Assembly: GCA_014871385.1 (NCBI GenBank)
Contig: CM026427.1
Span: 16,792,362-16,856,361, forward strand
Length of the DNA stretch: 64,000 nt
Reading direction: 5' to 3'
Origin: Ceratodon purpureus
Taxonomy: Eukaryota > Streptophyta > Bryopsida > Pseudoditrichales > Ditrichaceae
The position numbers were made by a program, and so were the translations under genes. This document shows, piece after piece, positions 38,001 through 64,000 of the stretch (position 1 is the first letter of the stretch; each line of letters starts with the position of its first letter). The notes beneath the pieces were generated by a model. The model was given only the letters and a program-made list of their open reading frames with translations, was not told the DNA's origin and made no database searches.

Positions 38001-38120
38001 GTGCGTGAACTCAGATGCACCCATGTCTGTTCCCATAAAGATCATTTTGACCCCATGATTTTTGGTGCCTCCTGGGGTTCCTCCGTCCGTGGGGGGCATA
38101 CGAATGCCTCTCAAAATGTT

Positions 38121-41527: not shown

Positions 41528-44095
41528 TCAATCCCTTCCGGCGGTTAAGAATGTTGTACCTGCAGGGATGATGCGAGAAGGAGAGAGGATTTCAGAAAAG
41601 GACGAGTTTGAAGACTCTGTACCAAGCTTGCTTTGGACCCAGCCCCTTCCTCCATTGAACCCATCGGTGATCACCCAAGTGTTGCTGAACCCTAATCCAG
41701 ATAAGGATCTCGCGATGACTTTGGCAACATCTCCGTTCCTGAAGAGAAACATCTCAGAGTCAGTGAACGTGAAACAATATATCACAGTGCGACTGCCTGA
41801 ATGTGCCACAGTCGAAGGAGAAGAGACTACAGCGTCTATTCCCCACACTAGTTTGAAGAGCAAAGTATACAAAGCCGAGATGTAAATGGCCTTACGAGTC
41901 AATGATAATGAGCCTGGAGCCCTTGTTGATTCTCTTCAATGCTGCAATTTTGAGGGCTGTGATCTCAGCTTCAACTTTGCGAATATTGCGTAATTGTCCC
42001 CTCAGTTTCCCTGACACCTCCTCAACCCTGTTTCCAGTGGAAAACTCTGTATGTCAGAAAGAGTATTTTGCATATCTGTGAAACCTTCGTGAAGTTGACA
42101 TGACCAACTATAACTAATCCTAAATATCAACGATAATCTAAAAGAAGTATGCTTGAAATTGGTGGAACAGGCAACTCACGGGATGGGTAAGAACTTGTTC
42201 TTGGCGTTTCTGGGCAGACTCGGCACGCCAGACTTAGACTTCTCCTTTTCACTCCTCACGTCGAGGAGAACGTAGTCTTCCTTTGACAGAAGATCCAGTG
42301 CCTTCAAAGCAGTAAGTTCACCTGCATGAACCACCCACATATCAAAGGTATGTCCAACCTAAACAATGCCACCCATAGCAGTCAAATTGTCCAGAACACA
42401 CACTCTCTAAGTGCCTTTTTATATGTTATCCAAGTCATCTTCTAGAGTCATGTGTATCAGAAAATATGTACTTCTATGTAAACATCTAGAATTCAGTGTC
42501 AATACCAAACTTTTAATTATACAAACCCCAACACAAACAAGGGTTCACAGCCAAATCACAGATTTCGAATGACGTCGATGCTCTTGAGTATTTACCCTTG
42601 AATCCCCGAACGGCGTAGGACACGCTCGAGAATAGAGGAGGAGCCAAGAAATATAGAACCAGCAAGGCTCCGGCTCCAGTGGCTAAAACGAGAGGGTCCG
42701 ATGACAAAACATTTTCAACAGTACTTGAAATCGATGGCTGAGCACCTTCAATGTACTTCTCCGCCTGTCCAGCTGCGTCACCTGCTACAGAGACGGCAGC
42801 CTGCGAGCAATCATTTGGTTTAGGTCAGTGTTTCAAACCCTTAGACCACCTTGGATGAAGTAAAAATGGGTACACCAGTCTAGGTGTCGAAAAGAAGATC
42901 AAGAAACGCACCTCTAAATGCAAGAGACAATTATCTAAACTGCGATTGTCATTAGATGTGGAATATTTAGGAGCGCCAAAAGAAAATGATTTCACTTGAG
43001 AAACCTTTAAACATAATAATTGCAACAAGCGCTAGGACCATACTAGATTGGGTGCTCTGCATTACCTTGGCAGCATCCAGAACAGGCTTGGTGTTCAAAC
43101 CATTACTCTGGAGAGCCTTCTCCGCCTGCTGCTCAAGATCGGTTGCGAAAGGGACCACGGATTTGATTGCGTAGTCTGCAGACTTCTGGACGTATGGAGT
43201 AGCCACATCTACAGCGGGTTTTACAGTCGTGAAAACTTGTTGAAAGACATCCTTCGCTACGTCAAACACATTCCCTGCTGATTGTGTCACTTGAGAGGCG
43301 ACAGATTGCACCTGTTGGAGGAGGAAATGTGCAAAATGGAATGAGAAATCCTTACAAGAAAACACTGTGCACCATTGTATGAACTCATCCGCCTACTATG
43401 CATTGGCTGATTTCAGACACCGACCGTTGGTACAAGAGAACAATAAAAGAAACCAGATCACCGTCAAAATCTCGCAAGGTAGATGTATAATTTAAGGCAA
43501 AAGCATGTTCCACAGAAACGATGGGAAAAATCCAAGATAGGCCGCGAAGGATAAGAGAAGCCTAAACAGGACCACTCCTTATTCATGACCCTCTATTGTA
43601 CTCGTAAGATCTCTGCAAAAATTAGAGCTGATTGAGGCAACCACAACTCTATTATCGTAACGATTACGAAACCCTAGAACCAAGAATGTTTGGTCATTTC
43701 TTCACAATGCAACAATCAAAGACATCTAAAAGTGCTCCATCATCTAATCTATTAATTCGGTCAGGAAGCTCCGATTAATGAGAAAAAGGCGAAGCTGAAC
43801 AATTACAGAGAATATATCTAACCTTTGTGTATGTCCCGGTGACGTCTTCGGCCGTGAGGGCGTTCGCAGCACCAGCATTAGCCAACACAACGACAGAGGC
43901 AATGGCAGCAGGCGCCACAACAGCACGAACCTCCTGCTCCTCCTTCATGGAAGCTCTCAAGCTCAACCCTGCTCGCCTGGCTCTCGGAACTCTCCTAGAA
44001 CCTCTCAGCAACACAGAAGTGTCAACATCCACCAAAGAACCTGCCAATGCGCCATTCATGGCAGTCACCTGCATAGCTCTCATCGCTTGCGCCAT
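41528..44095 (-). CDS. CAS: Chloroplast calcium-sensing receptor CAS, 402 aa, 6 exons
   Basis: CAS is a thylakoid-membrane protein that links calcium to stomatal and photosynthetic acclimation in plants. Exons 43823-44095, 43066-43311, 42596-42800, 42180-42321, 41896-42027 and 41528-41738 join into 1209 bases in phase. The N-terminus is Arg/Ala/Ser-rich and suits a plastid transit peptide. Exon 2 encodes the amphipathic Ala/Lys/Val repeats of CAS (KPAVDVATPYVQKSADYAIK). One transmembrane segment lies at about 208-230 (DPLVLATGAGALLVLYFLAP). Exons 4-6 encode the rhodanese-like domain, with DYVLLDVRSEKEKSKSGVP, RLIIIDSNGDVAKVIAR and DGFNGGRGWVQSKLGT. The usual rhodanese cysteine is not present at the IIIDS loop, so sulfurtransferase activity is unlikely. 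The tail FSEILSPSRIIPAGT is a CAS hallmark. The length is close to the 387 residues of the Arabidopsis protein. The frame extends upstream only from a non-ATG codon, so the ATG at 44095 is chosen. Confidence 0.92.
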
Positions 44096-44938
44096 TCCCG
44101 CCTCTTCCTCCCTGTGACACCACCCCCTCACAAGAGAGGAAGAGAATCTCCAAAGAACTTCAAACCGCTACTCGTATTCACCAAAACCACTTCAAGCTCT
44201 GCACCAGAACACGCACATTCACAGAAAATTCCATCAGAAAAAACGAACACATCACTCCATCAGAAACACAGCACTGCACCTGAATTCTCACTCACGAAGC
44301 CTAGATTACGAAGCCTAAATCACTCGCTAAACAGTCACTGCAAACTGAACGAAGCAACGGTCATGGAAAGAATGCATCGTCAATTGGAACTTAATGTGAA
44401 TCTCCCTGTACTGCCAATCCATACACAAGCCTAGGAAAGAAGAAGTCTAGTAGTAGTAGTTCAGCTGGAGCATGGAAAGAAGTTAGGTACAAATGTCCGC
44501 ATAATTCACAATCTCAGTGAAGAAAGTAGAAAGTAGAAGACATGAGACGATAGCGAAATGTGTGCATGAGAGAAATGTGAAGTCGTTGTATAAGATGTGA
44601 GACGAGGTCGACCAGTGTGAAGATTGTCGTGTGGATTGTGAGAGAGGAGGAGGGAGGGAGAGTGTGGGGGATGGTGTTGGTACCTGGCTGTGCAGATTGT
44701 GTGATGTGGTGTATGAGTCGGAGTGGGGGAATGGAGTGAACTCGTGTGGAATTGGGCGTGTGTGTGTGTGTTTGGGAATGAAGGGGAGGGTCATGTGACA
44801 TGTGGTGGGAGAGGCAGGCGGGGCTGCTGTCTGTGGAGCAAACTCCAGGGCCTGTCTGTGGGAACCCAACTTCACTCTGAGATTTGGACGGCCTATGGGA
44901 TGGCGCCGCGTGGCACACTGTATCCAAATCGTGGGTTC
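44096..44938. promoter_or_regulatory. CAS leader and promoter region
   Basis: This region lies upstream of CAS on the minus strand. It includes a short GT dinucleotide run at about 44758-44771 and purine-rich sequence near 44640-44670. I could not assign a TATA box or transcription start. The MITE at 44939 begins about 840 bases upstream of the CAS start codon. Confidence 0.4.
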
Positions 44939-45257
44939 ACCCCGTCTCTAAATCCCCGGTGGTCTTAATGACGGGGCGGGCTCCCATTGGAGGGGGCAAA
45001 AAGCCCCCTGTATTTTGCATGTTAATGAAAAAAAAAAATTAATTTAAAAAAAATTAAAATTACATAAACTAACTAAAAATAATCGAGTGGGTACTCCAGA
45101 CTAATTCGGGGTCCTAGATTCCATTAAAAATATAAAATTTACTAAAAGAGGGTAAGAGACCCATTAAAAATTTAAAAAAAGGAAGGGAGGAGAAAGGGGA
45201 GGATGAGGGTTGGGGCCCGCCCCGTCGTTAAGACCACCGGGGATTTAGAGACGGGGT
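44939..45257. mobile_element. MITE with 43-base terminal inverted repeats
   Basis: The left arm 44939-44981 and right arm 45215-45257 are reverse complements with one mismatch in 43. They begin ACCCCGTCTCTAAATCCCCG and continue GTGGTCTTAA. The 230-base core is non-coding and very AT-rich in the middle (long A runs near 45029-45060). The sequence GTTCAC occurs just outside both ends, offset by two or three bases, so a target-site duplication is possible but not proven. High arm identity implies recent insertion. Confidence 0.85.
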
Positions 45258-47636
45258 AAGTTCACGGGCCGCTGGGCCAGAGAGAAGGGGCTGTCATTCC
45301 ACACTACGCTGGGAAAAGTGCGAGAAATAGCAGAACAATGTAGCTCTTCAAATTTATTTCTTTATTTGATTATTTATTTGATCATTTACCTTAATTCATG
45401 ATTTTACTTTTTGCATAAGTTTTATTAATTTTATGATAAAATATTACATAGGAAAATATATCAATGAAGACTTAAAAGAATAAGATTTTACTATAAGTAT
45501 TACATTGTCTCATGTTGTGGTGAAGTCAATATCAAAATTGTATGACCACAGTAGAAAGTGACCTTGTGTTTTTTGAAAGCTACTGTGATTTTTTGTATCA
45601 CATTATTATTTTGTATTCCAAATAATTAAGAGGCATGGAAGAATTTACTGATCATTCTCCATTTGTAGTACTTGGTGGTGCTTGAATCAAGGTAAAGTAA
45701 ATTAACCTCGATTTTAAATACTAGTAAACTCTTGTACATCAAACATGTCAAACTACCAATTTTTAAAAATATATATGAGTTATTTAGACCGAGCAAAAAG
45801 GATCATGTCAAATCAAAATCAATGTATGTAAATCAAATACTCAATGCCTTTACAAATAACTTTAAAAAAGTCATAACTTTTTTGAAATTCTCCATATATG
45901 AGAACAAACAGTTGCCCGAGGGCTAATACATGCAACAAGAGGGAAGGCGAGGAAGATAGGGAAGGTAGGGAAATGGAAGAGCATAGATTCACGTCAAAGC
46001 ATGTTCGTCCAAAAAACCATTTTAAAAATAAAAAACATAAATAATAGAAATTTACGAAAATCAAAAATCAAAAGCAGAATAAAATATTTTTTGTAATATT
46101 TTGTTATTTCTAAGCCATGTAAGGTCATTTTCACTGATTTTCTTTACTTTTAAAAAGAAATTGCGGAATTCAATGATTGATTCAAACATATTTTTTCAAA
46201 AAGAATAATTTTTTTATGCTACAGTGGTAAAAAAGTAGCAAGCATAGGCCATGTCAGTCGGCGATGTGGACAGGAGGAGGACGTGATAAATTATGGCAAT
46301 TGTTGTTGACCCAACACAAGAGAGCTCAGAGCATCAAGGCAGCCTTCAACCTTGGATGGTGGATGGCAGTCCAGCTACATTAGACGTGTGTACTTCACAT
46401 TGCCATTTCTTATTCGCATAACATTTTACAAATGACTGAAATTATCGTCACATAATCAGATATGCTCATTTCATGTGTCGCAGTTGATTGGAACATTCCA
46501 TTTGGAATTGTTGAAGAATTTTTTACCTTGCGAAAGCTCAGATCAAGCTGTAGAACGTCCAGTAATTGCCCAAACAAAGCCTACAATCTTCCCAGTCTGA
46601 GCACAGAATAATATGTGTGCATACAAAAGCTCGTGACATTTCAGTTGATCGTTCTCTTTCCAACAATAGCCTGCAAATTGGAAACGCTGCAAATCCTACT
46701 AACTGAGAAATGTAGCATTAGTCAGCCGAAATAATCAAGCTGCGCCTTTCCGACTGAAAAGCCCTTGAGCTCTGAATTCCACTCCCTCGAGCAAGGGACT
46801 GCTGCCTCTGGCCTTCACCTGCAGCGCAACTCAACTTGCTAGAAGCTGCCATGACCTGATTTGCTCTGTAACTGAGAATAGTTTGAACTAAGGTTGAAAA
46901 CCAACCGATCGATGTCTGAAACAGAGATAAGCTGTGGTTTACGAAGATGACAACACTGTACAAATTGAATGATAGACTTCACTAGACTGCTGGACTGAAT
47001 ATTGAAAGCAGTTCCTGAGGATTACATATATCCCTGCATTTACCCTTCCCAAGGTGACATTTTGAATGACGATTAGTTTGAGATCATGCCAACACGAGAG
47101 TAGAGGAGCTCACATGTCATTACTATCAAGAATTTATTGCTTCAACAAGATTGAATCACAAGATTGTAGGATCAGAGTCAATGATCATTATACTACTGCT
47201 CAAACTTTGCATAAATCCTCAGTGATTGTTATAAATAAGTCAGTGTTAAATCCTCTTGAAAACTGTCAAGTGGATTTTCCTAGGCTGCGAAGTTTCATAC
47301 CTTTGATTTATTCAAAATTTCTATATTTCCCTGGCTCATCCTGACTGATGACTCAGTTATTGTGAGATTCTGGAAATTTGGGACCATCTGTATCCCACAT
47401 TTGATGCGGCTTTCACGGGCGTGCTTGGTTACACTCAAAGTGAGTCTAAAGAACTCTACGACAAGTAGGGACAGCAGATAAGTTAAGTCAGATTCACCAG
47501 CTGCAATGGGACCACTTAGATTTGTCAAGTTCAGATGCTCGTTTCTTCTTTGGTTTGTAGAGCGTCGACTGTAAAGATGGCCAACTACCATATTTCTGGC
47601 AAAAAGTACACGGCCACCGATTTCTTTGGTGCTTGC
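45258..47636. other. AT-rich spacer between CAS and argininosuccinate synthase
   Basis: The stretch 45330-46250 is AT-rich with no gene. From 46500 to 47636 composition is normal. A minus-strand frame from the ATG at about 46852 to 46718 encodes 44 residues rich in Ser, Ala and Arg, which I cannot place. The last few hundred bases are the 3' untranslated region of the synthase. Confidence 0.45.
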
Positions 47637-50582
47637 TTAAAGACCGTGCTTATGCATGGCGCGCACACGGGTTGGCAATCCATACAGACGGATAAAACCA
47701 GCTGCGTCAGCTTGGTTGTAAATCCCACTGCCTTCTTCAAACGATGAGATGTCTTGTCTGTAGAGGCTGTTCGGACTGGATCTGCTGGCTACAGTGACGG
47801 AGCCCTTGAAAAGCTTCAGGGTAACTTCTCCCGTGCTTGTCTCGGTCATCTTCTCCATGAACGCATCCATAGATTCGCGGAGAGGATCAAACCAGCGGCC
47901 TGCATACACGAGTTCAGCGTACTTCAATGCTAGCGTGTCTTTCATCTGCATGCTCTCCCTGTCCAGAGTGAGGGCCTCGAGTTCACGGCAGGCAGCTGCC
48001 AAGATGGTGCCTCCGGGAGTCTCGTAAACCCCCCTTGATTTCATCCCGACAAGACGATTCTCGATCATGTCGATACGGCCAACGCCGTGCTTGCCACCAA
48101 CCTCGTTCAGCTGCTCCAGAAGAGTGACAGGTGAGAGCTTGTTGCCATTGTATCCAACAGGTAGGCCCTTTTCTATCTGAATCGTAACATACCTGTTGAA
48201 GTTTGACAGAATAGTCAGGAACAAGTTTAATGCAATCCTAGAAACCAGAACTCATCAGAATGCATTCCACAGATTTTCAAAATTTTCCAATTTTGTTGAT
48301 CAAGTACAACCTGGAAAGATCACTGCACACCAACATAAATATTTCTCACAATTGTCCATACATGTCGAAGCAGAAATGAGCTAAAGAAACCTATCATAAT
48401 TCAATAAACACCCAGGAATGTGTGCGTTATTAAACACTTACTCGGGGGTATCTGGAGCATCCTCAGGGTCTACACTCATTACAAACATATCCTTCACTGG
48501 TTCGTTGGCAGGGTCTTCCAAGATGTCACCCTGAAGCATTCCGTTAAGGAGTTTATTTTGTGATCCAAAAAATATGCATCATATTATTTTTCTAACAATA
48601 GCCAAGAGACAGTAGACGAGAGCCTCACTAAGAAGATATAAGAAGCAGAACAAAGGAATTAGTGTTTTCAAGGATGGTTATTTCAGTGTAAATCTACCTC
48701 ATGGCTGATGTGCCACAGGTTACGATCCTGACTGTAGATTTTTTTCTTTGTGGCTTTTACTGGGACGTTGTGCTTCTTGGCATATTCAATGGCATCCTCC
48801 CGTCCTTTGATGTCCCACTCTCTCCATGGTGCAACAACCGCCAGCTTTGGGTTTAGAGCAAAGAACGACAGCTCAAAGCGCACCTGCTCACGGTAATACA
48901 CAATACCAGAATGTCAGATATGTGCCTACACGCAATATTTCTAATGCCAAAAAACTGAAAGGGATGGCAGGACCACTTTTACTGAATGCTTCTTTTAGTG
49001 CTACAGAAAGCCACTCCACCTTAAGGGAATATATAATTAATGTACAGAATCACCTCTACATGAATATGAAGATAAATATGTGTACTAACCTGGTCATTAC
49101 CCTTCCCAGTGCACCCATGTGAAACGGCATCTGCACCATATTCCTTTGCGACATCTACCATGGCCTGTTAAGTGATAGACAACAACCACCAAGCTGTTCA
49201 CATGAGTTTAATTGCAAAATGAAGTACAGAAATTTCAATAGTACTCAACAGCTGAAATAAATTCTGATGTTCAGAGAGTATTCAGGGCATGACCTTGGCG
49301 ATAATAGGGCGAGCCATGGACGTTCCGAGCAAATACTTGCGCTCATAGACAGCGCCGGCTCTCAAGCAGGGGAAGATGTAGTCTTTCACAAACTCTTCCC
49401 TTAAGTCTTTAACGATAAACTTACTAGCTCCACTTGCTATGGCTTTGTCTTTTAAACCTTCGGTTTCTCCAACACCCTGCGCATGTCAGTGTTAACACAA
49501 CATACGAAGAATAACTCAAGCCACAATTCTCTTTCAATTTGCCTTCATGTCATCTCTCGTCCTCACTATAACTGTTGCAGTAGGGGGTTTCGTTTTTACA
49601 AGCACATTACATCCTAGCCCCCTGTGATATGCCATTGATCAGAGTGAGAAGCGTATTACCTGACCCACGTCAGCAAGAAAGCACACAACCTCAGAGCCAT
49701 AGTTTTCCCTGCAACAGCATAAAAGAGAGACTGAGTAATTGCGCAACAAAGATTCACAAACCTGTTTATTGGGAGTCGGTTTTACAATCGAGGCAAGACA
49801 TTTTAATATACAGTCGTTGCCCTTACACCTCTCATTATCTTCAATGGTGAACTGCTCATTCATGACCCCACAACATTATAAGGGAAACGCAAGAAGATGT
49901 CAGTCAACGTTGCACCCGAATCCTCACCTCAGCCATGGCACACTGATTGATGTATCTAAACCACCACTATACGCCAGCAAAACTTTCCTCAAAGTCCCAC
50001 GAATCCCTCCTTTGTGTTCTCCTGGCACCTCCACATCTCCAGTCCCAATATCTGCACGGACTCCTGCAGTACAAGATTATCTCTTCAATAGTTAAATTCT
50101 AATTACTGTTTCCCCTCCTGTGAAAGTAATTGACGTGATACTGCTGTGCGTTGTCAAAATTAAGGTGAGAACGTGTACCTCGGATTTGAGAAACTTTACG
50201 GTGGCCACTGTCTGCGCAAGTTTTTGAAAGCGACTCTCCCCACATGTGGCTTGTGGAACCCCCCCACATTGCCTGCAAGTAGAAGTTCCTGATTAATTCA
50301 CTGACAGACAATAGACTACGTGGTGCCACATTGTTTAATCGTAGCTTCATCACTTGTTTTATACTATTTGGCATAAACCCTCCTGCTGTGCTCAATATAC
50401 AGATTTCTGATTAATACTCATAAGAACGGGATTGCGCAAGATCACCCAGAGATCGAGTAGAGCAGACAGAGAAGGGTGGATAATAAACACAAGATTCTTG
50501 CATAGAGAATACTTACGCTCGTGCATCTCGATTCGGGAAGGGAAACGGCCGCTTGCATCACCGCTGCTTTGGAGCACGCCAT
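47637..50582 (-). CDS. Argininosuccinate synthase, plastid type, 477 aa, 9 exons
   Basis: The enzyme joins citrulline and aspartate using ATP to make argininosuccinate, the penultimate step of arginine synthesis, in the plastid in plants. Exons 50517-50582, 50179-50272, 49928-50063, 49660-49708, 49294-49476, 49090-49164, 48698-48883, 48442-48530 and 47637-48192 join into 1434 bases in phase. The first 70 or so residues ([19 protein letters not shown] onward) look like a plastid transit peptide. The ATP-binding P-loop AYSGGLDTS is at about 84-92. Further family motifs are [56 protein letters not shown] and [15 protein letters not shown]. All catalytic blocks appear intact and the length is normal. 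The translation start is the first ATG of exon 1. Its promoter lies directly against the CACTA-like element. Confidence 0.95.
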
Positions 50583-51432
50583 ATTTCACTACTAGCGAAG
50601 TGGTCGTTTCTCACTCCGGACTGTAAGGGCTGGGTCGCGGCTTAGGCGCTCCTCCGGCGGTTTCTGTCTTTCCCTGCGTGGTCGCCGGTGTGGGCGGTGT
50701 GGGCCACTCCTTGGAAGGCTGAACATCGAATCAGGATGCGCGATGGTACTGGATTTATCCTGGGTGGAACCACCTCGGACAGGGTAATAAGCAAGCGCGA
50801 GCCACGTATGAATTACGACCCTCCCTCGACATAGCTACGAGATTACTGGTCCAAGACGCCGGGAATTTTAGGTCCCACGATTTCGAGGTCGTCCTCGTTG
50901 GGGTGACTCGGGTGCCGGTTGATGCCCGGTGCTTCATGTGGGAGAATGACCTCAATGTGTACAGTACGCTTTTTTTCCTGATGATATTACTGTTGATCCA
51001 CATTACGGTAGTTGTACCGCGTCGTCACTTAGATTCAAATAGACGTCTGAGGGATGCAATTTTTTTCCTAATACTTTGAACGACCACATCCAGTCCAGTA
51101 CATGACAAGCACGCCATTTCACAGAAAAAGCAGTGGAATTCATGGGCCTGTAGTAATACGAAGATAGAAACGAAATTCAATTATCCATTATAGAAGTATG
51201 TAACGAGTGCACCACATAGCGGATACGCTCAGTCCGGTGCAATCACGCACATGATACCCGAGTGAGTTCAAAGAAAATGTTAAGCTCACACCTAATTTCC
51301 GATCACACCTACTTTACGATCACACTAACTCTCCGGCAGTCGTCAAGTTCATTTTAAAGCTCTATATCAGCCCGTCCGGATGTGCATCAAAATGATTTAT
51401 GTACAGACCAAAACCCCCCAGTACTCATACTA
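50583..51432. promoter_or_regulatory. Synthase promoter and probable left edge of the CACTA-like element
   Basis: This short spacer separates the synthase start codon from the 3' end of the first transposon gene. It must contain the synthase promoter and, if the element is intact, its left terminus. Two CACTA pentamers lie in the right orientation, CACTACTAGCGAAGTGG at 50587 and CACTAACTCTCCGG at 51323. Neither can be confirmed because the right terminus is outside the window. Short repeats CGATCACAC occur at about 51299 and 51317. Confidence 0.35.
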
Positions 51433-53617
51433 TTACTGAAGCCCTCCAATTCTGAACACATCAGTCGCTATCGGTGTCCCCGATATTGATGCTCCCCATA
51501 TTCCTTCCAACATTCGCATCGTAATCTCCCGATCCCGAACCAGAAGCCGCAACCTCTGCGTCAAATTCACACACGTAGTACAGAGATATTCTATAAGTGT
51601 AACTGCTGTTACAGGAGACATGGCTACGACTATCAGCACTCACAAAAAGTGATACGTTATATATATTCATGAGTACGTAAGCAACTCAGCAGTAGAGATT
51701 ATCCTTATGTAAGTGAAAGGTGATAGATCGCTCACCGCGAGGGAGTAATAGTGGACGTCGCTGGAACCTCAGCGGTGAGAACTTCACAGAAACGTTGGAA
51801 TCCGCCACATACTTGTCCACTACGATGTTGCAATCCGGCACCTGCGACGCCTCATTCCCCTCAGGTGGAAAAGCCATGTCAATTGTTTTCCATCTCATCT
51901 TCGTAAGCCACCCTTCCTGTGCCTCCTCCTCCGCCTTCCGCTTCTTCGACTCTCTCTTGAACTCCGTCTCCTTCTCTTGGAGGAAGGTCAACTGTGCTTC
52001 GGGTTCGATTGTGTAGAATCCAGCCTCCACGGCCCAGTGATCCACTGCAAAATTCAGAGGTACAGTAAGCCCACGTCGTCGCATGAGATTAAAAAAAAAA
52101 TCAAGACGGGTTGTGGTTCTGAAGTCGAATAGGTTCAGTAAGGTTTAGGTGTCTCACTTCTCGACTACAATTTCAGGATGAGACAATGACAGGGGAACTC
52201 TTGAAAACTCACATTCGGCGTGAACACGGTCGGAGATGTCTACTCCGAGGACATCCTCATCGCTAACAATGTCCTCGAGGTCGCGCTCCACGCCGGCGGA
52301 TGGGTGGATACTCGTTTCAGTCCTATGCCTGTCGGACGGCTCGTAATCAGAGTCCGATGTGGATCGTCCAACCTGGCGACCACCGACAGGAGAAACTGCT
52401 GACGGCCACCCATTAGCAAGTTAAAAAGTGCTTCTATTCGACTAAACACTTAAGTGTTATATCTTCAAATCTACTAACAAGCTAAACCGAGGCTATTTCT
52501 GGAGTACATAATAGTACCTGGTCCTGGTGACACGGGGCAGCTGTCCCACTCGTTGCCTCCTTCTACGATTGGTGATCCTTGTGTTGCAATAGGTGGTACT
52601 TCCGCGGATTGGACCTCTTCAACCGAGAGTGGAGCTGTACCTGCACGAATTGGACCACACGCCTCGATACATTCTAATGATTGGCAGACGTAGTGGATTC
52701 CACCAAGCACAATGTCCTCCAATTGTAGGATTATTTAACTAACACTGGATTGAACATCAGCGTACATAATGGATGACAGGAGACTCACCGTGGTTATTAA
52801 CTATCTTCTCCGACGAGTCACTCCCAGAGCTTGCAGTATCACTGTCTGCATGCGACGACACTATGTACAAACAGCCAGCATCTATTTCAGTACAGAACAA
52901 TGTAATTTCATGTCAGAGTAGCGGAGTAGAATTCATATTCAAGGTACTTGAAGGGAAACGGTAGGGGGGCTGACCTCCGATATGAACCACTCGCCCGTAC
53001 AGTGGTGGGGAGACGACGGTGTCCGGCCTCGTTGGCAAGGCATCCTTCAAGTCGTAGCCGTTGATGAGCCTCATGTTCATCTGCCGAGGATGCCTATTAA
53101 CCTCCCAGTCATCCGGAGCCCCCTCCAAGTCATTCGCGTTCAGCTCCGACGCCTCAATCCGTGGCCACCAACCGGACTCCCGTCTTGTTTTGCTTCTCAG
53201 CTCTTCTAAGGATATGAACGGACGCCCCCCCCGCTGACACTGCTTGGCGGCAAAGGAGGCCCAATCCACTGCGTGCCCGAGCTTCTCTGCAATCAGTCCC
53301 CGTGCAAAGGCGAGTCCAATGCAGCGCTGCTTCCCCATTGGGCGCTGGTGGGTAACCTCGTACAGACTCTCAATCCTCTGTATCATTCTCGGACTCTCGC
53401 TCGAACCTGGCCGCGCGTACCAGAATTTGCCGTGTTGCTTTGGTCCCCATCGCTTCGCACACTTCTCCTCGTTCACGACTATGTCTGGAAGTGCGTCCCG
53501 GTCGCGTCTCGGGGCTCCCGGCAAGTATCCGTAGTTATTCAGTTTCTTGTCCACGAAAAACCATCGTGGCGATCCCCGATGAGGGTTCCGTGGAATGTCA
53601 TGGCTGTCGATGGCCAT
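51433..53617 (-). CDS. Unknown CACTA-associated protein, 514 aa, 6 exons
   Basis: I do not recognise the family. Exons 52975-53617, 52789-52881, 52518-52673, 52213-52398, 51736-52044 and 51433-51590 join into 1545 bases; every internal intron is phase 1 and the frame closes exactly. The N-terminal exon encodes a compact 214-residue module with many Trp, Arg and Gly residues (RGSPRWFFVDKKLNNYGYLP, EKCAKRWGPKQHGKFWYARP, VDWASFAAKQCQRGG). The middle exons are acidic and Ser/Asp-rich. The fifth exon has a lysine/glutamate coiled-coil or nuclear-localisation-like run (KRESKKRKAEEEAQ). It lies downstream of TNP2 on the same strand. It could be an accessory or regulatory protein of the transposon. 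A further upstream exon (to about 54067) reads openly but its phase does not fit, so it may be leader. Confidence 0.6.
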
Positions 53618-54977
53618 GTCTGCGAAGACATACAGAAGACATCATATTGATTAAGTCTTCCATAGCCGAGACAGCAAGGGTTAAATTCTATTCCATTGTA
53701 AATAAAAAAAAGGCGCACTAACTACACAACTCCAGCAAAGAGGAACGAGAACCCAACAAATTCGGAGGATGAAATGGTTACGAGTCATTCAAACACACAC
53801 AATATGGAGGAGAAGGGCGTCTGGACCGTCGACAAGATATGGAGAAGTCAGCATGGTACAAGCACATGGAAATACTATTCGGAACATAATATCATAGATG
53901 GAAGCGCGTACCTGGTTCAGTAATGAAGCCCGTGATTCTGCTTCGCACGCACCGGGGAAGGAGTGGATTAGCACACAGACGCCAGAAAGCATCAGTCGAC
54001 GGGTTCGCACTCTGGAGGCTCCGCCCACCTGTGCGATGGAAGCATTGAGGAGCATCCGCCTCTCCATCTCTCAGGCGACTCGCTTTATTCTGAGGAAATT
54101 AGGGTTCTAGAAGACAGCCGACAATTGATTGGGGCTGGTAGTCACCTCACATCTATTGCTCCCTGTCATAATATGATGCTGAAATCCAATGCGTGACGGG
54201 TGTGGATACGCCACGATGGTCATTGTGTCACTAACCTGTCAATTCTCCACAACACCTTCCACTCATTGACGATACAGCGAGGCAGACTGCTGCTAATTAC
54301 AGCCCAGAGGTGACAGAATAATGACATGTGAAACTAGAAGGAGCCGCCTCGCTGATGGGATGCTATGCGTTCTACTCATGTCTACTTCAGTGCCCCATGA
54401 CGGCATGACCTACGCCTACTTTGATGGAATGGACTCGAAACGGCTGGAACTGACATGCGTATGTACTCGTCCTCTGGATTATGATTGATTAGATGGACTT
54501 CCTGAATAGACAAACAGGCTAAGATTTTGTGACAGGTGAAAGAGGCTCCGCCTACTCAGTGTCCGGTGCTGGTGACATGACCGTCCTCCGTCAGAACCTT
54601 GGCTCGTACGTGAAGCAAGTTCTGACAAGTCAGTACATGGGACGAGCCTCTGACTCAGTTTGGACGTGTGAACATATTACCTAAGAGGGATGTGGATATA
54701 CTAAACCGTGGACCTACTGATGCCCCATGGCCAGAGAAGCACACGGTATTTCTCTGAACAGAACCTAGAATATAGAGGTTGCGGAAAAACTTTTGGGGAG
54801 TTATTCAGTTACTGACCTCAGAGAGTAACCTCAACTGATCAGTTTGCAGAATGCTGTGAGAGACTGTAATGAAGGATTCATTCGCTGAATTGACGTACCA
54901 ATGTCTTAGGGAATGCCGTAGTAACACCGAGTTCAAGCTCTGCGTGAAGGGCTGATGGCATTTCAAACTCGTTAGAG
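53618..54977. other. Spacer inside the element
   Basis: This lies between the unknown protein gene and the 3' end of TNP2. A minus-strand ATG frame at 53926-54067 ends in a good donor (CCAG/GTACG) but is out of phase with the next exon. It may be a leader exon. Nothing else is recognised. Confidence 0.4.
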
Positions 54978-57900
54978 TTATGCATCGTCAATCGCATTAG
55001 GTACGGGAATCACTGGAACTGCTGCCTCGTCGTTGGGGATGTCGTCCTCTGAATCGGAATGGATGTGGTCCGTTTGCATGTAAGCTGCTTCTTCGTCGAC
55101 CTCTTCGTGTGCCATGACATGCACCACGTCGGCCTCTAGTACTGGCTGCCTCTGAGGCTCAGCTGCAGCCTCGCCTTGTCCTCTAGCAATGTTAAGCTCG
55201 GTGGCAGTGGTCCGACCTGGTGCGCTAAGAGAAGCGTCTGGTAGCCCATCAGTGACCCGCCGTGATCTCGGCTCCTTGTACCTCACAACCTTCCATTCTT
55301 CATTGTATGGATCATCGACAAAATAAACCTGTTCGGCATTGGGTAGTCCATAATGACGACTGTGATAAGTGATACGATGCTCATGATGCAATTCAGAGGT
55401 TCAGCTTAGACCGGAATGCAAACATTGGGAGACTGTACGAATGAAAGGGAATTGCGTCGATTAACTGACCTGACGGGCATGTGCGGCCATGAGATACGGC
55501 TCGACGTCTGCACTCTGTCGAGCAGCGTGTTTTACGAGCCAAAAACCGTCTTGGTCTACTTTGATTGTCGGCTCCCCTGCGAGATCAGGCTTGATCCATG
55601 AACACCTCAATACGTTGAACTTCAAATGTCCGTAGTCAACGCGCAGTATGTCCTTAATAATTCCTACATAAAGGAGCTCCGACTCAATTTGGTTCACATC
55701 CGACACTGAAGAACGGCAGGTTTGGTTTATGATGGCTGCCACTCCAGCGTCGAAGGTTACGTGTTGTTTCCCGTCCTCTTCGTCAGTTCTGAAGTGGTAG
55801 CCGAAAGCCCACATCGAGTTATGATGCTTTACGTACGGAGACGGAAGTCTGGACATAGTCACCAGATCTGGAGAGGGGTTATGACCATCGATTCCCATTT
55901 GACGCACTCTCTCTTCGATCCAGTCTGCGAATGGAACGAGTCTCCTTGGATTGCGACCCCTAAGCGATCTTCTTTCCTCTGAGAAAATACTGCAACAGAA
56001 ACGGCTGTAGAGTTAAACAGTACTCTACGTACTCGTTTTAATAACAGTTAGAGCACTCTTTATTTAGTCACCAATGCGATGACACTGACCCAAACAGTAC
56101 GCATGAGGGTAGCATACCTATAGAGGTCCTCCGTGTGGACGCAGTGACGCAAAACATGTTCGTGAAGTTTCTTCAATTCAATGTCGTCCCAGAATTGCTC
56201 ACGACCCTGCCCCTCCATCACCTCCCCTGCGTCCTGTTCGTCTTCTTCCATGTCCCAGAGTAGTCTCGCAACTCCTGGATACATTTGGAAATGCTCTGTG
56301 ACGAATCCGATGGCTTCCGTATACATATAACCCTGGGCAATGGATCCTTCGGGTCTGGCCTTATTACGCACGAGGCTCTTCAAGTGACCTAAGTACCTTT
56401 CCACGCTATACATCCAGCGGGCATGAACGGGCCCGCACCAGTAAAGCTCCCTTGGCAAGTGAAGTACGAGATGGGGCATTATATTCCAATACGCCAGTGG
56501 GAAGTATATCTCCAGCAGAGAGCAAGTTTCGGCAATGTAGTTCAATAAGTTCGGGAGCTCACTCACGGTTACTTGTTTCTCGCAAATCTTCTTGAAGCAG
56601 TGCCCTAGTCGAATAACAGCTACCCGAGGTCCATCTGCGAGCGACCCTCTCAAGGCGGCAGGTAACACCTCCTCTAGAACAACATGCCAGTCGTGGCTTT
56701 TCATGAACTGGAACTTCCCTTTATCCAAGTTAACTACCTTCGACAAGTTCGAACAGTGACCAGTCGGTGTTTGAACATTCTTGATCGTCTGTAGGACTCG
56801 TCGTTTCTCACCGGGGCTAAGAACGTAGGGTGCCTGCGGCATCAGGTAGCTATCGGTTAACTCATCCCGCACAAGATGCAGACTAGGCATGACCCCTTGA
56901 TCCTGTAGGTCCTTTCGCACGGCTATCGTGTCTTCTTCACCGAGTAAAAATCCAGTAATTGTAACCGCTATATTCTTTTCCACATGCATGACGTCGAGTG
57001 TGTGCCTAACTGGAAGTTCCTATTCACAGCACCATGAAGAAAGTTGTGAGACTTCAGCTGAAAATATAAGAATGGGGGATCAGCAAGCACGACTGACCAT
57101 TGCACCGAGAAACATAGTCTGCTACATATTCATCTGGTCACACAGTACCAGATCATGCGCAGGTGAGCATCGACATGTGCAATTCATGTCGTCGAACAGC
57201 ATGATCATATAATCCAATTCCAGCAGTCATTATACGCTATCTAAGAGAACAACATACGCTAAATGAATGGTTAGAAGTCCCGGTGGACAGAGCCTGGTAG
57301 TTCGAACCCCATTCACCAGCAAGTTTATCGACACCGAAAAAAAAGGCTGGGCTAAACTTCAATGACATATGTTAAGACAGCTACATCACCCCGACGTCTA
57401 GACATAGAGTCCCAAGTGATCATGACATGAAGCCACTGGAGCCACACAATATCGAGACGTCGAAGACAACATGTGCAGACTGTAAACAAGGATCAGGGGC
57501 GGCTCAGTGGCACTCTTACCTTCCAGTAAGGAAGCCTATATAGTGAGGAAACTCGCTTGATGCCGTGCCTTCTGACGGGGTCATTTTCCTTCGGTCTTCC
57601 ATACTCTCTAAGCCACCTGACACGCTCCTCTCCCCTCTGCAATGCTTCACTTCCGGTAACGGGAGTAGGGGCCACTCGGTGCTCCTCATCTATGAAGTTT
57701 GAACTGTCGCCCCTGAAGGGATGGTCTGCCCTAACAAGGAACCTGCGGGCACATCCACAGAAGACGTTCTTGTGTAAAACCTTAGAACGCCGTGATCTAA
57801 AGCCCTCCCCGCACACTGGGCAGCCAACGAACCCATTGGTTGTGCAACCAGCTAAAACGCCGTAGGCTGGGAAGTCGCCAATTGTCCAGATGATCATCGC

Positions 57901-59658
57901 CTTCAATATGAAATGAGACGACTCCTTATAACGGGCGACATCCATGCAGTACACCCCTTCTTCCCAAAGATGTAAGAGTTCTTCAATCAGTGGCTCCATA
58001 TAGATATCGAAGTAATCAGCTGTTACGGATTTAGGACCCGGGATTAGGATCCCCAACATAATAAAATAATTCTTCGTCGTAAGCCACGGTGCAATGTTGT
58101 AGTTCATGAGGAGAATAGGCCATATAGAGTAAGTACTCCTCTTGTCTGCGTGGGGGTTGAATCCATCTGTAACAAGAGCCATTCGCACGTTTCTATCGTC
58201 ATGGCCAAACTCTGCATGAAATCTCTCCGAGATCCACTTCCATTGCGCTGAGTGAGAGACATGAGACATCACACCGTCCGTGACTGCGAGGGTCGCCCAC
58301 CATGTCATTGCAGCTGCCTGAAGAGCACTTCGAAACATCCGTTTGAGTCGCGGAGTAAGAGGGAAGGCCCTCGTAACCTTGAACGGCACTTCTGATCTCC
58401 CTGCTCTTCTTTTTCTCGGAGCCCTGCAATGTGGACAAACACGAGCGTCCTTCAGGTCCTTCCGATACAGGCAACAATTGTTGGGGCAGGAGTCGATTGA
58501 CTTGTAAGTGTGGCCCAACTTCCTCAAGTACTCGGATGCCTCTCTGTAAGTCTTGGGTAAGGTATTCGGCTTAGGAAGAATGGTAGTGCTTAAGGTCCGG
58601 AATAGCTCATCCAGGTAGACGTCGGAACAGCCGTGCAGCTTTCCACTACTTAGAAGCACATACGTCGTTCCCATGCTAGAGTATTCTGATCCTGGGAACA
58701 AGGGAGTAGTCGCTGCCTCCTCTAGGGCCGCGATGGAAGCGTCTGTCTCGTCGTCAGAGTCTCCCCACTGGTGCGCCCCCTCGTCTCCAGAGCTATCATC
58801 AGAAACGTCGACTGACGGTGCATCGGAGATGTCACGGCCGTCTTCACCTGCTGCATTACCTTCCTCGCGTAAGGGGATTGCCGAGTCACTGCTTCTCTCC
58901 GGACTAGGAATCCCCCCACCCCGACCTGCTCCTACGGGTGATGCTCTGTTCTCCTGCCCTAAGTCGTCGCTGACTCCATTCGGAAATCTCTGTTGGTGCG
59001 GATCTCCTCTCGGATGCTCTCCAGCATGAACCTGGTCCACCATCACCTCTTCATGAATTCTGTCCACGATATCATGAGCTTCGACTACCATCTGCGTCAC
59101 ATCAATCCCCGGGTCTAAATCCCTCCGCCGTAGTGCGTTTGGACGCATTCTCGCCTGCGCTCCATAGTACCACGTAATGTGGTCCTCCCACTCGACGTCG
59201 GAGTCGTCGTCCTCGTATCCCTGGTACAACAGAACATCTTCGACTGTTAGGCAGGAGGTGCTTCATGACATGCGATATCCCAATTCATAGCATCAACCAA
59301 TCGGTATTGTGTTCTTCTACTGTGCATGGAAGGTGAAGGCTCTAAGTGAATTTTCAGAATTCGAGTTCCTGAGTTGTCGTGGTTAATCTTACATATGAGC
59401 ACCACATCAACACACGAAGGAAAATATGAGACATACCTCTGTCCTTCCATAGAACCACACATGCCTTCCATTATCCCTCAGGCATCTCCGGTATGAGTCG
59501 AGAGTGAGTTCCGCCTCCCGCATGTGGATTTGACATGGACATGGCAGTTTCGTCCAACTCATCCGCCTCGCGTACGCCAACTCCCGCCTGAGTAATTTCG
59601 CTCTCCGAGACAGGATGCGAGCCTCCCCCGGTGGATTCCTTCGAATGCCCTCTTCCAT
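54978..59658 (-). CDS. CACTA (En/Spm) transposase, TNP2-like, 1231 aa, 5 exons, intact
   Basis: This is the cut-and-paste transposase of a CACTA element. Exons 59437-59658, 57520-59220, 56118-57019, 55470-55989 and 54978-55328 join into 3696 bases with no stop. Exon 1 begins MEEGIRRNPPGEA. Exon 2 has an acidic insert, then Transposase_21: the cysteine motif DSCPNNCCLYRKDL with CPHC (about 317-339), ALVTDGFNPHADKRSTYSIW (about 422), IPGPKSVTADYFDIYMEPLI and GFVGCPVCGEG. The exon 2/3 join restores the hallmark LPYWKELPVRHTLDVMHVEK. Exon 3 carries DUF4218 (FPLAYWNIMPHLVLHLPREL, CGPVHARWMYSVERYLGHLK). Exons 4-5 carry DUF4216 and end QVYFVDDPYNEEWKVVRYKE plus an acidic tail. The intact frame suggests recent activity or selection. 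The 500-base second intron has a SINE-like B box. Confidence 0.88.
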
Positions 59659-59906
59659 TCTAAGAACATGAAGAACGACGACAGCGGTTCTTCAGACTCA
59701 CGCACTGTCAATGAACAGCCATGTACATCACGGTAACTACGTAATTAAGCACTTTCTACCCACCGAAAACTCCTTAATCACAATTGGTGCCCAACGGGTC
59801 AAGGAATGGCAGCATACCTAAATGCTTCACCTCGCAAACCCAACAAATGTAAGCGTCTGAGCGAAATCCCCTTTTCTGTGCAGAACTATTCTGACCAGCA
59901 TTGGTC

Positions 59907-60784
59907 CTATCCAAGGCGATACACCTCCTCCAAGCCGTCGAATTCAATCCGAACCAAGTCCGCTGGAAAATCAGAGCTAGAGACTTCTGCAGAAGGCTCT
60001 TCGTATTCTTCGGGACGTGTACTACCTTCCGACGGATTGTATTCCTGCGTAGGGAGTAGTAAAAGACACTTGCAGAATAGAGAGGCCGACGTCGCCAATG
60101 ACGAGAGTGTATTGCACCTGCAACGCAACCACTTCACCCGCATCGCTCCATCCAAGGTGAAATACTTTCCCCACATTTTCCCGAGAGCGCAGTTGCATTT
60201 CGGATTATTAAACCACCTAAGTTTCCTACACGAACTGCAATCGCAGAACTCAATGCAGACGTGACGAGGACCGAGCACTCCTAACTCATACACCCGGATT
60301 GCGCTCTCTAACAGACTTGGTGCCCCACCAAATCGGTCAACGCGTAACGAATCTGTTCCGTAATCAGAGCTATATTCCAAATCCTCTCGATGCATCCTCT
60401 CAGTACTCTCTATCCACTTCAACCACACCACGATCAGAGTAAGCACCTCAGAAATTGTCCGTTACTCTGTAAACCCTAATTAGGAGTGTTGGGTGTGCGT
60501 CTGCAGTACACTCTTCCGGAACGCAACAGCGCAACAAGGAAAGCAGAGTACATCGGTGAGCGGGAACGCATGTGCTCTCTTGAAGGGAACGTCCCCACCT
60601 GAACAGCGTTGCAATAGAAATATTCTATGTCTTCCCATGCACCTATAGACCATTCCAAACCTCCCGTAGTGCGTAACCAGAGTACCTTAGTCTCTTGGTG
60701 CCATCGTCCGAGGATGACCTTCAGCGACGAGGCTCCTTCAATCCCCGACCCTCGGCCCATCCAACCAATGATAGGCGCCGTCAT
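59907..60784 (-). CDS. CACTA-associated cysteine-cluster protein, 241 aa, 2 exons
   Basis: Exons 60599-60784 and 59907-60446 join in phase 0 across a 152-base GT-AG intron, from MTAPIIGWMGRGSGIEGASS to the TAG at 59907. The family is unknown to me. A cluster of eight cysteines at about residues 126-173 has spacing C-x3-C-x-C-x2-C-x10-C-x-C-x22-C-x-C, including CDCSSCRKLRWFNNPKCNC and WLRCRC. This is the kind of pattern that binds zinc. The C-terminal third is acidic (Glu/Ser-rich), ending DGLEEVYRLG. It lies upstream of TNP2 on the same strand, 250 bases from its start, and head-to-head with the F-box-like gene. A DNA-binding or protein-binding accessory role is only inferred. Confidence 0.6.
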
Positions 60785-61461
60785 CTGAGGGATTCTCGCG
60801 AAAGCTGCTTTTGATCTATATTATCTATTTCTAAGTGGGGAAGTTCGGTTTGTACCTGGTCGGCCTTGTCAGGTAAACAACCGGGTATATTGGTTAGTTT
60901 CTAGTAATCATCGACACGGCGTCACTTCGGAAACCCATCCACGACGTCCATGAGTGAGGACTTCCACCATTAAACCTAGGATAGCTATGATGCTGAAGAT
61001 ACCTCCTCTGAGACGGAGTTCCCACTCTCCACCACATGCACCACGATGGCGGACAGTATGGTGATATTTAGCATACCGTCCCGTTTTTATCTGATTTGCA
61101 GACCAGCAGCAGTAATGGTTCAGAGCGCCGTGATCGGGAGAGTTGTGGGCGCTCTTGTCTTACTCATCGGGGGGGATTTCCACTTTCTTGCAAGGCTCTA
61201 GGGTTTAGGGATGAGATGTCGTCGCCCATGGCTCACGTCGACGGCGGCTGCCCCTGGGGTTCTCAACTGTGTCACAATGTTATTGAGAGACATTTAATCG
61301 GCCTCTGTCAATCGCATTGCTGCGCTCTCTTCCAACCTCAGGTCCACTCCCTAACCCAATGTTCGTTGTCTGCACTCGTTTGTTTCGTTAGATTCTCTGT
61401 TTCTTTTTGGACACTGTTCCATCTGTTAAGTCGCGCACGGAGATCCCCAACCCGCCGTTTA
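60785..61461. promoter_or_regulatory. Divergent intergenic region of the element
   Basis: About 680 bases separate the ATG at 60784 (minus) from the ATG at 61462 (plus). It probably serves both gene groups as a bidirectional promoter. The plus frame stays open from 61096, so some of this could be coding if an upstream start were used, but the composition upstream of 61462 is unlike the rest of the protein. Confidence 0.4.
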
Positions 61462-62013
61462 ATGGCGATGGACTCACGAGTACCGTCACCGAGCCGCATG
61501 TCCGCAAGAAGGATTGCCGAAGGACCGGGAGGCTTACACCACACCATGTTAGATGTAGTCGAGTTAGCCATCTTCCGCTTGGACAGGTACCTGAAGAGAC
61601 ATCGCATGCCGGTGAAACCGTGGGTGATGGATTGGAAGCGCCCTCGTAGTGGCCCAGAGTCGGATTGCGATCCCGCTCATGTCCCCGCGGAGACTTTCTT
61701 GGACTCCCTGCCCCGAGAGATAGTGAAGGACAAAATATGGCCATTGCTAATGAATGGAGAAACACCAGTCGATAAATTCAGAATGTTGTGTCATATTAGA
61801 TGCGTGTGCGTCGGGTGGATGGTATACGCTGAAGGTAGCAAGGAGTGGCCTTTAGGATTAGAAGCGTGGATTCAGGGTGATCATCGGGTTGTTGCCGCAA
61901 CAGGGGAAAATCCGTTCCATGACACAGACTCCGAATCCGACCCGGACTGGGCTAACGCAGATTGGGACTGGGACGAAGAGAGGTCCACAAGCGGCACTGA
62001 CGATGAGGAATAG
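61462..62013 (+). CDS. F-box-like protein carried by the CACTA element, 183 aa
   Basis: This is a single exon beginning MAMDSRVPSPSRMSARRIAE. Residues about 79-122 resemble an F-box: FLDSLPREIVKDKIWPLL, a short loop, then MLCHIRCVCVGWMVYA, matching the Leu-Pro start, the Ile-Trp-Leu-Leu helix and the Val-Cys-x-x-Trp end of F-boxes. A helical segment with basic residues precedes it, and an acidic Asp/Glu/Trp-rich tail follows (ANADWDWDEERSTSGTDDEE). F-box proteins dock to Skp1 in SCF ubiquitin ligases. No repeat-type substrate domain is present. It is transcribed divergently from TNP2 and next to the Transposase_24 gene. The frame is open upstream, so the start could be earlier; 61462 is chosen as the first ATG after which the composition is protein-like. 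The F-box call is by eye. Confidence 0.6.
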   Translation: MAMDSRVPSPSRMSARRIAEGPGGLHHTMLDVVELAIFRLDRYLKRHRMPVKPWVMDWKRPRSGPESDCDPAHVPAETFLDSLPREIVKDKIWPLLMNGETPVDKFRMLCHIRCVCVGWMVYAEGSKEWPLGLEAWIQGDHRVVAATGENPFHDTDSESDPDWANADWDWDEERSTSGTDDEE

Positions 62014-62379
62014 ATACACATTCTGTAGAATGAGAGGCAAGAGCGGCTGCGGCTAACGTCATTGTCGTAATCATCTTAGTGGATTTCGGAGTTTGATCCT
62101 GTCCTCCTCCCTGTACCGGGTTATGCCCATTGTATTTCGATAATCATATGTCGCACTGCATAGTGTGACACTTCCACCGATATTGGCTCATTGTCACGTT
62201 GTATATGTTCTATACTTTTCTGTTGTGGAATTCCTCATTTTTCGTTTCCACTTTCTATTTCACGTGTCATTGAATTAACCTTGTACAGTGGGGTTTGTTA
62301 TGGCTAACAGAATTTTATCCCGGTGTTATCATCCTCTGGTGGAGCTCAACATTTCGGACCTCCACATCTTTCCCAGAAA
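62014..62379. other. Short spacer
   Basis: This lies between the F-box-like gene and the Transposase_24 gene, in tandem on the plus strand. It would contain the terminator of the first and the promoter of the second. I see no distinct signal. Confidence 0.4.
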
Positions 62380-63828
62380 ATGACGTCCACTTCCTCCGGT
62401 CAATCGAACATCCCGACACAGGTAACACACTTACGCATTAGTATATCAGATCCGTCCTAAGTTCATTTTTCTCAGTCCGTGGTGGATAAGCACGTCGCAG
62501 CTGCATTTACATTTTTATATACCTGATTCTAAAACAATGTTATCGGGGTCTTGAACTTGAAGAGTACATCCTCGGGACAGATGCCAGTGAACTCAAATTA
62601 CCCTCAACGACCTCCGTACTTGCACCCGTGGGCGTCGCAGATGATGTACTCCGGGGCAGTTCCTCCTTCGATTGACTCTTCTTCGCAGTTGCAATATCTT
62701 TACCAAGGATGTCAGCATCCATCACTCCAGAACAATTCAGTTCCCGTGCCTCACGTCCGCAACTCCATGTCCCAATTTGCTCCCACGGGCGCCATGGAGA
62801 ATTACCGACGACTATCGCTAAGTCACAGTCGCGCTATTCAGCAGAACTCCAGTCAATCACATTCTCTAAGCTCTCCTATTTCCAGCCAGCTGCCGAGGTC
62901 CCGTGGCGGAGATGGGAGTGCGAGCAAAGACACCGCTAGTGGAAGTAAGGGCCAGGGTAGCGGTCACACAGCTCGCACTGAGGGATCCGACTCCAGGATG
63001 CATAACAGCAATCACTCCGACCTTCCGCCAATACCGCAAGCCCCATATCTCCCAGGCAGTACCGTCCCTTGGCCTGGATGGCGTGGTGCCTCAGTGCTAT
63101 CTCCATTCGACTTCCCACCTCCGGACATGACCTCCCCAAATGTTAGCCAGCAGCAGGTGGTGTTCGAAGCATTGCCCATCGTACCTCACAATCCAGTGGA
63201 CGTGACGAGAGAGGAGGACCAGGGCATTCGGTACGAAGAATCCAAGAGGACAGCTCAGAGAAGAGCTCAACGAGCCCGGAAAGCTTCTTTTATAGAGAAA
63301 TCTCAGCAGTGGCCCATGACGATCCAATGCACTGCAGAGGGAGGAATTCCGAAGGACGTCCGACCATTCGTCCACCGGCAATTCAGGGCATCTGCCCGAA
63401 GGTTTCTGAAAATGTCCACTATACATTTCAGAGACCATCCGGACTCTGACATCAAAGTGGTAGTAGAAGACATCGATCGCAGATTTGTATTCAACCCACC
63501 CTTGCGAGCGGGATATATCATGTGGTTTATAGAAAACTCCTTACGTACATCACGGTATTTATGGCGTAAACATTGGGTTAAAACAGGACGCGGGGAGAAG
63601 CATAAGTGGTGTCCCCAGAAGTATTTTCCAGCCCTTGTTAAGTATTGGAAATCTGCCGAGGCCGAGGAAGAGAGTAAGCGCATGAAGGAGGCCCGTAACG
63701 CAGCGAAAGAGAAGAAGAGACTACTCCTCGAGAGGAAGGACCACAGTAATATTGCAATTGACGATGCGTGGGATGTAAGAGTATTTTCTAACCCTCATTT
63801 ACTGGTGAACTTCATTGAAGTTTGGTAG
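62380..63828 (+). CDS. CACTA second ORF, Transposase_24 (TNPA-type) protein, 435 aa, 2 exons
   Basis: Plant En/Spm elements encode a DNA-binding protein alongside TNP2, often carrying the Transposase_24 domain; it binds subterminal repeats and helps excision. A likely first exon is 62380-62421 (MTSTSSGQSNIPTQ), joined in phase 0 to 62563-63828, 1308 bases in total. The first 230 residues are Ser/Pro/Gln-rich and disordered. A basic stretch (RRAQRARKASFIEK) precedes the domain. The domain shows VRPFVHRQFRASARRFLK, VVVEDIDRRFVFNPPL, YLWRKHWVKTGRG, FPALVKYWKSAEAEEESKRM and a Lys/Arg-rich helix (ARNAAKEKKRLLLERK). The end is the TAG at 63826. If the first intron is not used, translation would start at the ATG at 62581. 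It is transcribed opposite to TNP2, unlike the classic single-direction En/Spm layout. Confidence 0.78.
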
Positions 63829-64000
63829 AGACTTCGTTCTTCAATGCTTTGCACAGATGTCTTTGATTTCAGTAATGGACATCTTCTGCTTGAAATCCGT
63901 GATGATTGGAAAAGATGGACAGTAATGTCTTGGCCGCGTGTTGTTCCTCCATCGAAACACCTATTCATCAGAGAGAATCCCCACCTTTTTTTGCCTCACC
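63829..64000. other. Right edge of the window
   Basis: This is downstream sequence of the Transposase_24 gene. No TAGTG-type terminus or subterminal repeat is seen, so the element most likely continues past the window. Confidence 0.4.

Follow-up and report, generated by a model that had tools for sequence, protein, structure and literature searches.

CACTA transposons are usually described as two-gene machines, and a full-length element has been described with two open reading frames (ORFs; PMC4158355). En/Spm of maize and Tam1 of Antirrhinum combine CACTA termini and a 3-bp target duplication with a tnp2-type transposase and a second long, multi-exon gene, with Tam1 reaching 17 kb (PMC2613891). 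Tgmt* of soybean, a large and apparently autonomous CACTA element of 20.5 kb, sits in a host gene and is flanked by a 3-bp target duplication; both functions are encoded by a single large gene with alternative splicing, and the available text of its report describes no separate accessory genes (PMC2613891). According to a review, further coding sequences can be present in plant CACTA elements (PMC9033089), and Pack-CACTA elements carry captured genomic sequence besides transposase genes (PMC13317346). In the MULE superfamily, VANDAL elements are plant DNA transposons with genes beyond the transposase, among them VANC, which counters silencing (PMC10398659, PMC13317346). CACTA elements make up a reported 6.8% of a Sphagnum genome (PMC9946827). 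The stretch considered here, 64,000 nucleotides of the moss Ceratodon purpureus (assembly GCA_014871385.1, contig CM026427.1, positions 16,792,362 to 16,856,361, forward strand; hereafter the window), holds the left 13,414 bases (50587-64000) of what is very probably an apparently autonomous CACTA (En/Spm) transposon of a lineage in this moss, with a 3-bp target duplication and five genes in the fixed order Transposase_24-like (T24, +), F-box-like (+), Cys (-), TNP2 (-) and D (-).

The element resembles En/Spm and Tam1 in all of the shared features above, is similar to Tam1 in length, and resembles Tgmt* in its size, apparent autonomy, target duplication and position in a host gene. It differs from En/Spm and Tam1 in having three further genes, two of them lacking a Pfam match, and in a divergently transcribed partner gene. 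Its short subterminal repeats also look weak: the motif A[CT]CCGG has four copies in the final 1,200 bp and none in the initial 1,200 bp, and no 8-mer reached four copies. VANDAL shares with the moss element the presence of extra genes and belongs to another superfamily; in Pack-CACTA the additional sequence is captured, whereas the moss genes keep their order across diverged elements. No description of such a five-gene CACTA element was found in the available text of the open-access literature searched.

The borders were placed by comparing the window copy with nine other near-identical copies in the assembly searched (362.5 Mb, 151 contigs), from which the remainder of the element was read. 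A sharp left border lies at 50587 in the window copy and in the six others whose left end is in view, and all seven left flanks differ. Measured in the C2 copy, the whole element is 17,616 bp long; this copy is almost identical to the window copy (three single-base indels and zero substitutions over 13.4 kb) and carries CACTACTAGC at its left end and GCTAGTAGTG at its right end. The first 10 bp of the inverted termini match perfectly and 25 of 29 positions match overall, giving the CACTA...TAGTG ends of the superfamily. A perfect 3-bp target duplication, also characteristic of the superfamily, flanks four of the five testable copies, namely three of four young ones (C2, ACA/ACA; C6, AAT/AAT; C3, ATG/ATG) and a diverged relative, B, on C1 (ATG/ATG). 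The window copy has TTT on its left flank, and its right end is expected near 68202, beyond the window. The initial annotation, which had proposed a CACTA lineage elaborated beyond the textbook two genes and had suggested looking for such termini and duplications, is borne out here: the C2 termini enclose all five genes within a single CACTA/TAGTG pair, and none of the extra genes falls outside them. Its span of 51433..63828 has to be replaced, with the left border moved to 50587 and the right border placed outside the window. The five genes lie where they had been located, and the features are as follows.

50584 to 50586, no strand: left copy of the target-site duplication (TTT), from flank comparison; an empty tandem duplicate is identical up to 50586.
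50587 to 50615, plus strand: left terminus, CACTACTAGC and the next 19 bp, agreeing with the inverted right terminus at 25 of 29 positions.
51461 to 53617, minus strand: gene D, 472 amino acids (aa), exons 53617-52975, 52860-52789, 52634-52518, 52395-52213, 52044-51736 and 51555-51461, from the splice model and codon-level selection.
54978 to 59658, minus strand: TNP2 transposase, 1,231 aa, exons 59658-59437, 59220-57520, 57019-56118, 55989-55470 and 55328-54978, from the splice model, Pfam and codon-level selection.
59907 to 60395, minus strand: Cys gene, 162 aa, modelled as one exon, with ten invariant cysteines.
61468 to 62013, plus strand: F-box-like gene, 181 aa, modelled as one exon, with weak PF00646 matches in relatives.
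62380 to 64000, plus strand: T24-like gene, exon 1 62380-62421, exon 2 62563-63774 and six further exons past the window, from copy alignment, the C2 model and Pfam.

In the splice model TNP2 has five exons with every phase closed, in keeping with the intact TNP2 gene that had been claimed. All three of its Pfam matches exceed the cut-off: Transposase_21 scores 195 bits (cut-off 28.6), which identifies a tnp2-type transposase of the CACTA superfamily, DUF4218 scores 95.7, and DUF4216 scores 38.7. The last passes its cut-off of 30.6 only once exons 4 and 5 are spliced, as the separate unspliced exons score 20.5 and 16.6. Splice positions were set by eye on a three-copy alignment, and the majority, also judged by eye, are retained in two diverged copies. 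A Cys-TNP2 fusion was considered and rejected, as the one candidate splice, found by eye, is out of frame and each gene has its own start. The T24-like gene splices at 63774 and has just its first two exons in the window; in the C2 copy it has eight exons and 886 aa, the last exon ending at element position 15972. The earlier view that splicing closes in all multi-exon genes thus holds for TNP2 and D; the T24-like gene runs past the window, and neither this gene nor the full five-gene set is complete there. As a sign that the cassette has been kept, splicing is silent on the single-exon Cys and F-box-like genes, whose evidence is codon-level selection.

Such selection was assessed by comparing the young family (C2 copy) with relative B (complete, 18,193 bp, spliced TNP2 92% identical) and with a more distant copy, C. 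The ratio of nonsynonymous to synonymous divergence (dN/dS) of whole genes against B is 0.10 for TNP2, 0.10 for the F-box-like gene, 0.23 for Cys and 0.29 for D. The whole T24 gene gives 0.42 and its exon 2 gives 0.32, both distorted by a frameshift in B; for the initial 300 codons of exon 2 the ratio is 0.16, and for the last exon 0.01. Five exons were tested with controls (D exon 1, Cys, F-box-like, the first 300 codons of T24 exon 2, and TNP2 exon 2) and show dN/dS of 0.08-0.23 with zero new stops, whereas seven control frames (six antisense, one intergenic) range from 0.32 to 2.34 and six of the seven acquire stops. Against copy C, stops are acquired in all seven controls and in none of the five real exons, and the proportion of nonsynonymous differences is well under that of synonymous differences in all five; dN/dS separates less, with two controls at 0.21 and 0.28 and real exons at 0.15 and 0.20 where computable, synonymous sites in this copy being saturated for several genes. 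Judged from these codon patterns, all five predicted genes are under purifying selection, and the dN/dS comparison that had been recommended across copies supports the proposal that the gene set is kept by selection. Could the additional genes instead be captured host genes, a Pack-CACTA-like chance cargo recently acquired and carried along by a burst? Capture of gene pieces by CACTA elements is known (PMC13317346), and the near-identity of some 60 copies is alone no proof of selection; the gap between real exons and control frames in the comparison with B, and the recurrence of this gene set, identically ordered, in relatives whose proteins are 32-72% identical, are hard to square with such an origin, which is considered very unlikely.

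Gene order was followed in these relatives through searches that each listed about 150 best places. Rows at no more than 72% identity (no more than 58% for Cys) were retained, giving 71 for D, 62 for Cys, 54 for the F-box-like gene and 16 for T24; more similar rows, second fragments of one place and broken young-family-like pieces (e.g. C64, C77, C11:8716779, C3:9584122) were dropped, and a partner was defined as the nearest listed place within 20 kb. Among the places listed, D is the partner of 22 of 62 Cys rows, where random placement would predict 0.45 of 62, and it lies downstream and on the Cys strand in 22 of 22; the F-box-like gene is the partner of 21 of 62, upstream on the opposite strand in 21 of 21. 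F-box-like rows are partnered by D in 23 of 54 cases with a single orientation (23/23), and T24 rows by the F-box-like gene in 15 of 16, again with a single orientation (15/15). The search for copies with the same gene order, which had also been suggested, therefore finds order and orientation constant in diverged relatives with listed neighbours. Because all five genes are under selection and their order is constant in relatives, the supposed passengers are better regarded as long-standing parts of a CACTA lineage, a lineage that keeps three further protein families as a set. The module seems to be particular to a single CACTA lineage and not shared by CACTA elements generally, because none of the best 150 PF02992 places has a listed diverged place for D, Cys, F-box-like or T24 within 20 kb. 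TNP2 copies without these neighbours, which had been named as evidence against the proposal, are accordingly seen in part, for other lineages, which among the places listed seem to be without the set.

Several observations weigh against the reading of a single, intact five-gene transposon. The five gene models are predictions from sequence alone, and the flanks of copy C9 are unlike (CTC/TGT). The Transposase_24 (PF03004) match reaches 13.3-15.2 bits against a cut-off of 28.7, at the same 27 profile positions each time, and the firm assignment made earlier to this family cannot be kept. Relative B is not fully intact, as its frameshift lies in T24 exon 2, and exons 2-4 of D are unconstrained in comparison with it (dN/dS 0.75-1.02). 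Many diverged rows have no partner among the places listed (e.g. 40 of 62 Cys rows have no D), although a partnerless row among some 150 best places is no evidence of absence. In a sister lineage, L059, TNP2 (exon 2 58% identical) is adjacent to Cys (51%), but the 3.2 kb examined past the TNP2 end gave no match to D, which in the window starts 1.4 kb away; the L059 element may be truncated. This last case, along with the divergence of strands between Cys and F-box-like, would also suit two nested or fused elements, a standard TNP2/T24 CACTA and a second mobile unit with Cys and the F-box-like gene. Such a composite is highly improbable in view of the single terminus pair that encloses all genes, with a length that hardly varies from 17.6 kb in 24 of the 30 end-paired copies, the order conserved in diverged copies, and the absence from the element part of the window of any CACTA/TAGTG pair with equal 3-bp flanks and at least 10 of 14 matching end bases. 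One pair with these properties, at 12706-38760, lies outside the element part and was set aside.

The three further proteins offer few matches to known families. In gene D a conserved N-terminal domain is followed by a loose acidic linker and a charged C-terminal part; the six-exon model replaces the 514 residues first given, and exon 1 gives a dN/dS of 0.08 against B, and exon 5 gives 0.36 in the frame of the model and 0.88 and 1.51 in the two alternative frames. The conserved domain has no Pfam match, and the best PDB profile match for D has an E-value of 1.2. A MATH-domain match at the C-terminus (18.3 and 15.6 bits) was under the cut-off of 21.2 and was not used, and a single-sequence AlphaFold model of exon 1 was unusable (mean pLDDT 31.8). 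The Cys protein has ten cysteines that are invariant across the window protein and six relatives; nothing was found for it in Pfam or in a PDB profile search, and from the cysteine pattern it is likely a zinc-binding protein. For the F-box-like protein, PF00646 (F-box) gives weak matches in five of the nine members scanned (the window protein and eight relatives; E-values up to 1), the best at 0.0079, far from the 35-bit true F-box match of a kelch-repeat gene in the window. The curated PF00646 score is reached by none of them, the window protein itself has no PF00646 match, and PDB profile matches are at 0.19 or worse. The label given earlier is thus kept for a signal that recurs among members, and is qualified by its low score and its absence from the window protein. 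Between the divergent Cys and F-box-like genes lies a further conserved feature.

61035 to 61265, plus strand: conserved block, 69.5% identical to copy C at the DNA level across 233 alignment columns.

From its position and conservation this block may be a promoter, a leader or a short upstream exon, a possible exon ending at a conserved CAG/GT.

By analogy with its family, TNP2 would be the transposase that cuts at the CACTA ends and pastes through 3-bp staggered cuts. The long T24-like protein occupies the position of the TNPA-type partner of En/Spm and probably binds the ends; for En/Spm itself, TnpA has been reported to activate Spm with DNA demethylation (PMC10398659), which, like the action of VANC in VANDAL elements, serves as an analogy only. 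The Cys, F-box-like and D proteins would probably be accessory to transposition or to escape from silencing and not captured cargo. It is quite possible, if a little short of probable, that they act solely within the transposition complex, in end binding or pairing, and leave host silencing unaffected, a variant compatible with a single five-gene transposon. The cysteine-rich protein would be a plausible DNA or protein binder, the C-terminal part of D is charged, and in some CACTA families excision and transposition are aided by the ORF2 protein (PMC4158355); the F-box-like protein, with its weak but recurring PF00646 signal, would be an odd architectural factor. A counter-silencing module, in which the F-box-like protein would steer a host ubiquitin ligase onto a factor of silencing or repair and Cys and D would serve in targeting or assembly, and which would underlie the present burst in a haploid moss, is a speculative and rather unlikely alternative, the weak F-box similarity alone hinting at a role in host interaction.

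The apparently autonomous five-gene element belongs to a young family, whose very recent spread has produced some 60 near-identical copies, as seen from three counts. The main TNP2 exon has 75 scored genome matches, of which 56 are 100% identical along the full 589 residues; there are 64 exact copies of the 29-base left end (and 62 of the right end, with at least one diverged copy among its matches); and, of the 30 left ends paired with a right end within 40 kb, 24 span 17,593-17,622 bp. The other six end-paired copies comprise one of 15,097 bp, three of 24.6-26.9 kb and two deletion derivatives with both exact termini, C92:23870-26141 (2,272 bp) and C111:14691-20350 (5,660 bp), which are candidate non-autonomous members. 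Contig ends, masked stretches and changed ends are the likely reasons for the 34 unpaired left ends. Open frames of 3,479-3,740 aa surround some matches (C5:2623558, C9:8677241, C9:15075575, C9:2443794); these and the 24.6-26.9 kb copies probably reflect nested insertions of a sequence that contains a giant reading frame. That the copies are false duplicates of the assembly is barely credible: 22 of the left ends (64 in all) do lie on small contigs, and a tandem duplication at about 100% in the samples read affects the host locus too, but 42 left ends lie on 13 large contigs, the compared left flanks are all distinct, and four of the five copies tested have their own target duplication. With intact, near-identical recent copies and diverged relatives of the element in one genome of a haploid plant, a direct test of accessory transposon proteins becomes available.

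The insertion in the window can also be dated relative to its surroundings. It lies upstream of a host argininosuccinate synthase gene, with 4 bp between the left end of the element and the start codon as read from the sequence.

50580 to 50582, minus strand: start codon, as read, of argininosuccinate synthase in the host, 4 bp away from the element.

The exon at 47640-48251 of this gene matches Pfam Arginosuc_syn_C at 219.6 bits and has four genome matches, the window's own included. The match 40.9 kb rightward is identical over 437 bp, with the identity ending exactly at 50586, after which its sequence runs on with no element, presenting an unoccupied site. The two belong to a tandem duplication (window about 33080-50586 and C7:16866362-16883836) that carries a protein kinase gene and argininosuccinate synthase, extends back at least to window 33080 (98.45% over 3.7 kb; 100% in samples of 801 and 1,001 bp), and has the element at the argininosuccinate synthase site in its left member only. 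Because the duplicate continues past 50586 without the element, the insertion is younger than the recent tandem duplication, unless the duplicate was made by the assembler; the second copy of the host locus could be such an assembly duplicate.

Among the large contigs, C6 (110,524,308 bp, taken as the U sex chromosome) has 4 of the 42 left ends, where 13.0 would be expected by length (binomial P 0.001, masked stretches uncorrected), which hints at a preference for autosomes or gene-rich DNA. The U chromosome of Ceratodon purpureus has been reported to be more repeat-rich (PMC9273592). Elsewhere in the window, the F-box and kelch-repeat gene at 2121-3335 (minus strand), the source of the true F-box match mentioned above, is an ordinary host gene.

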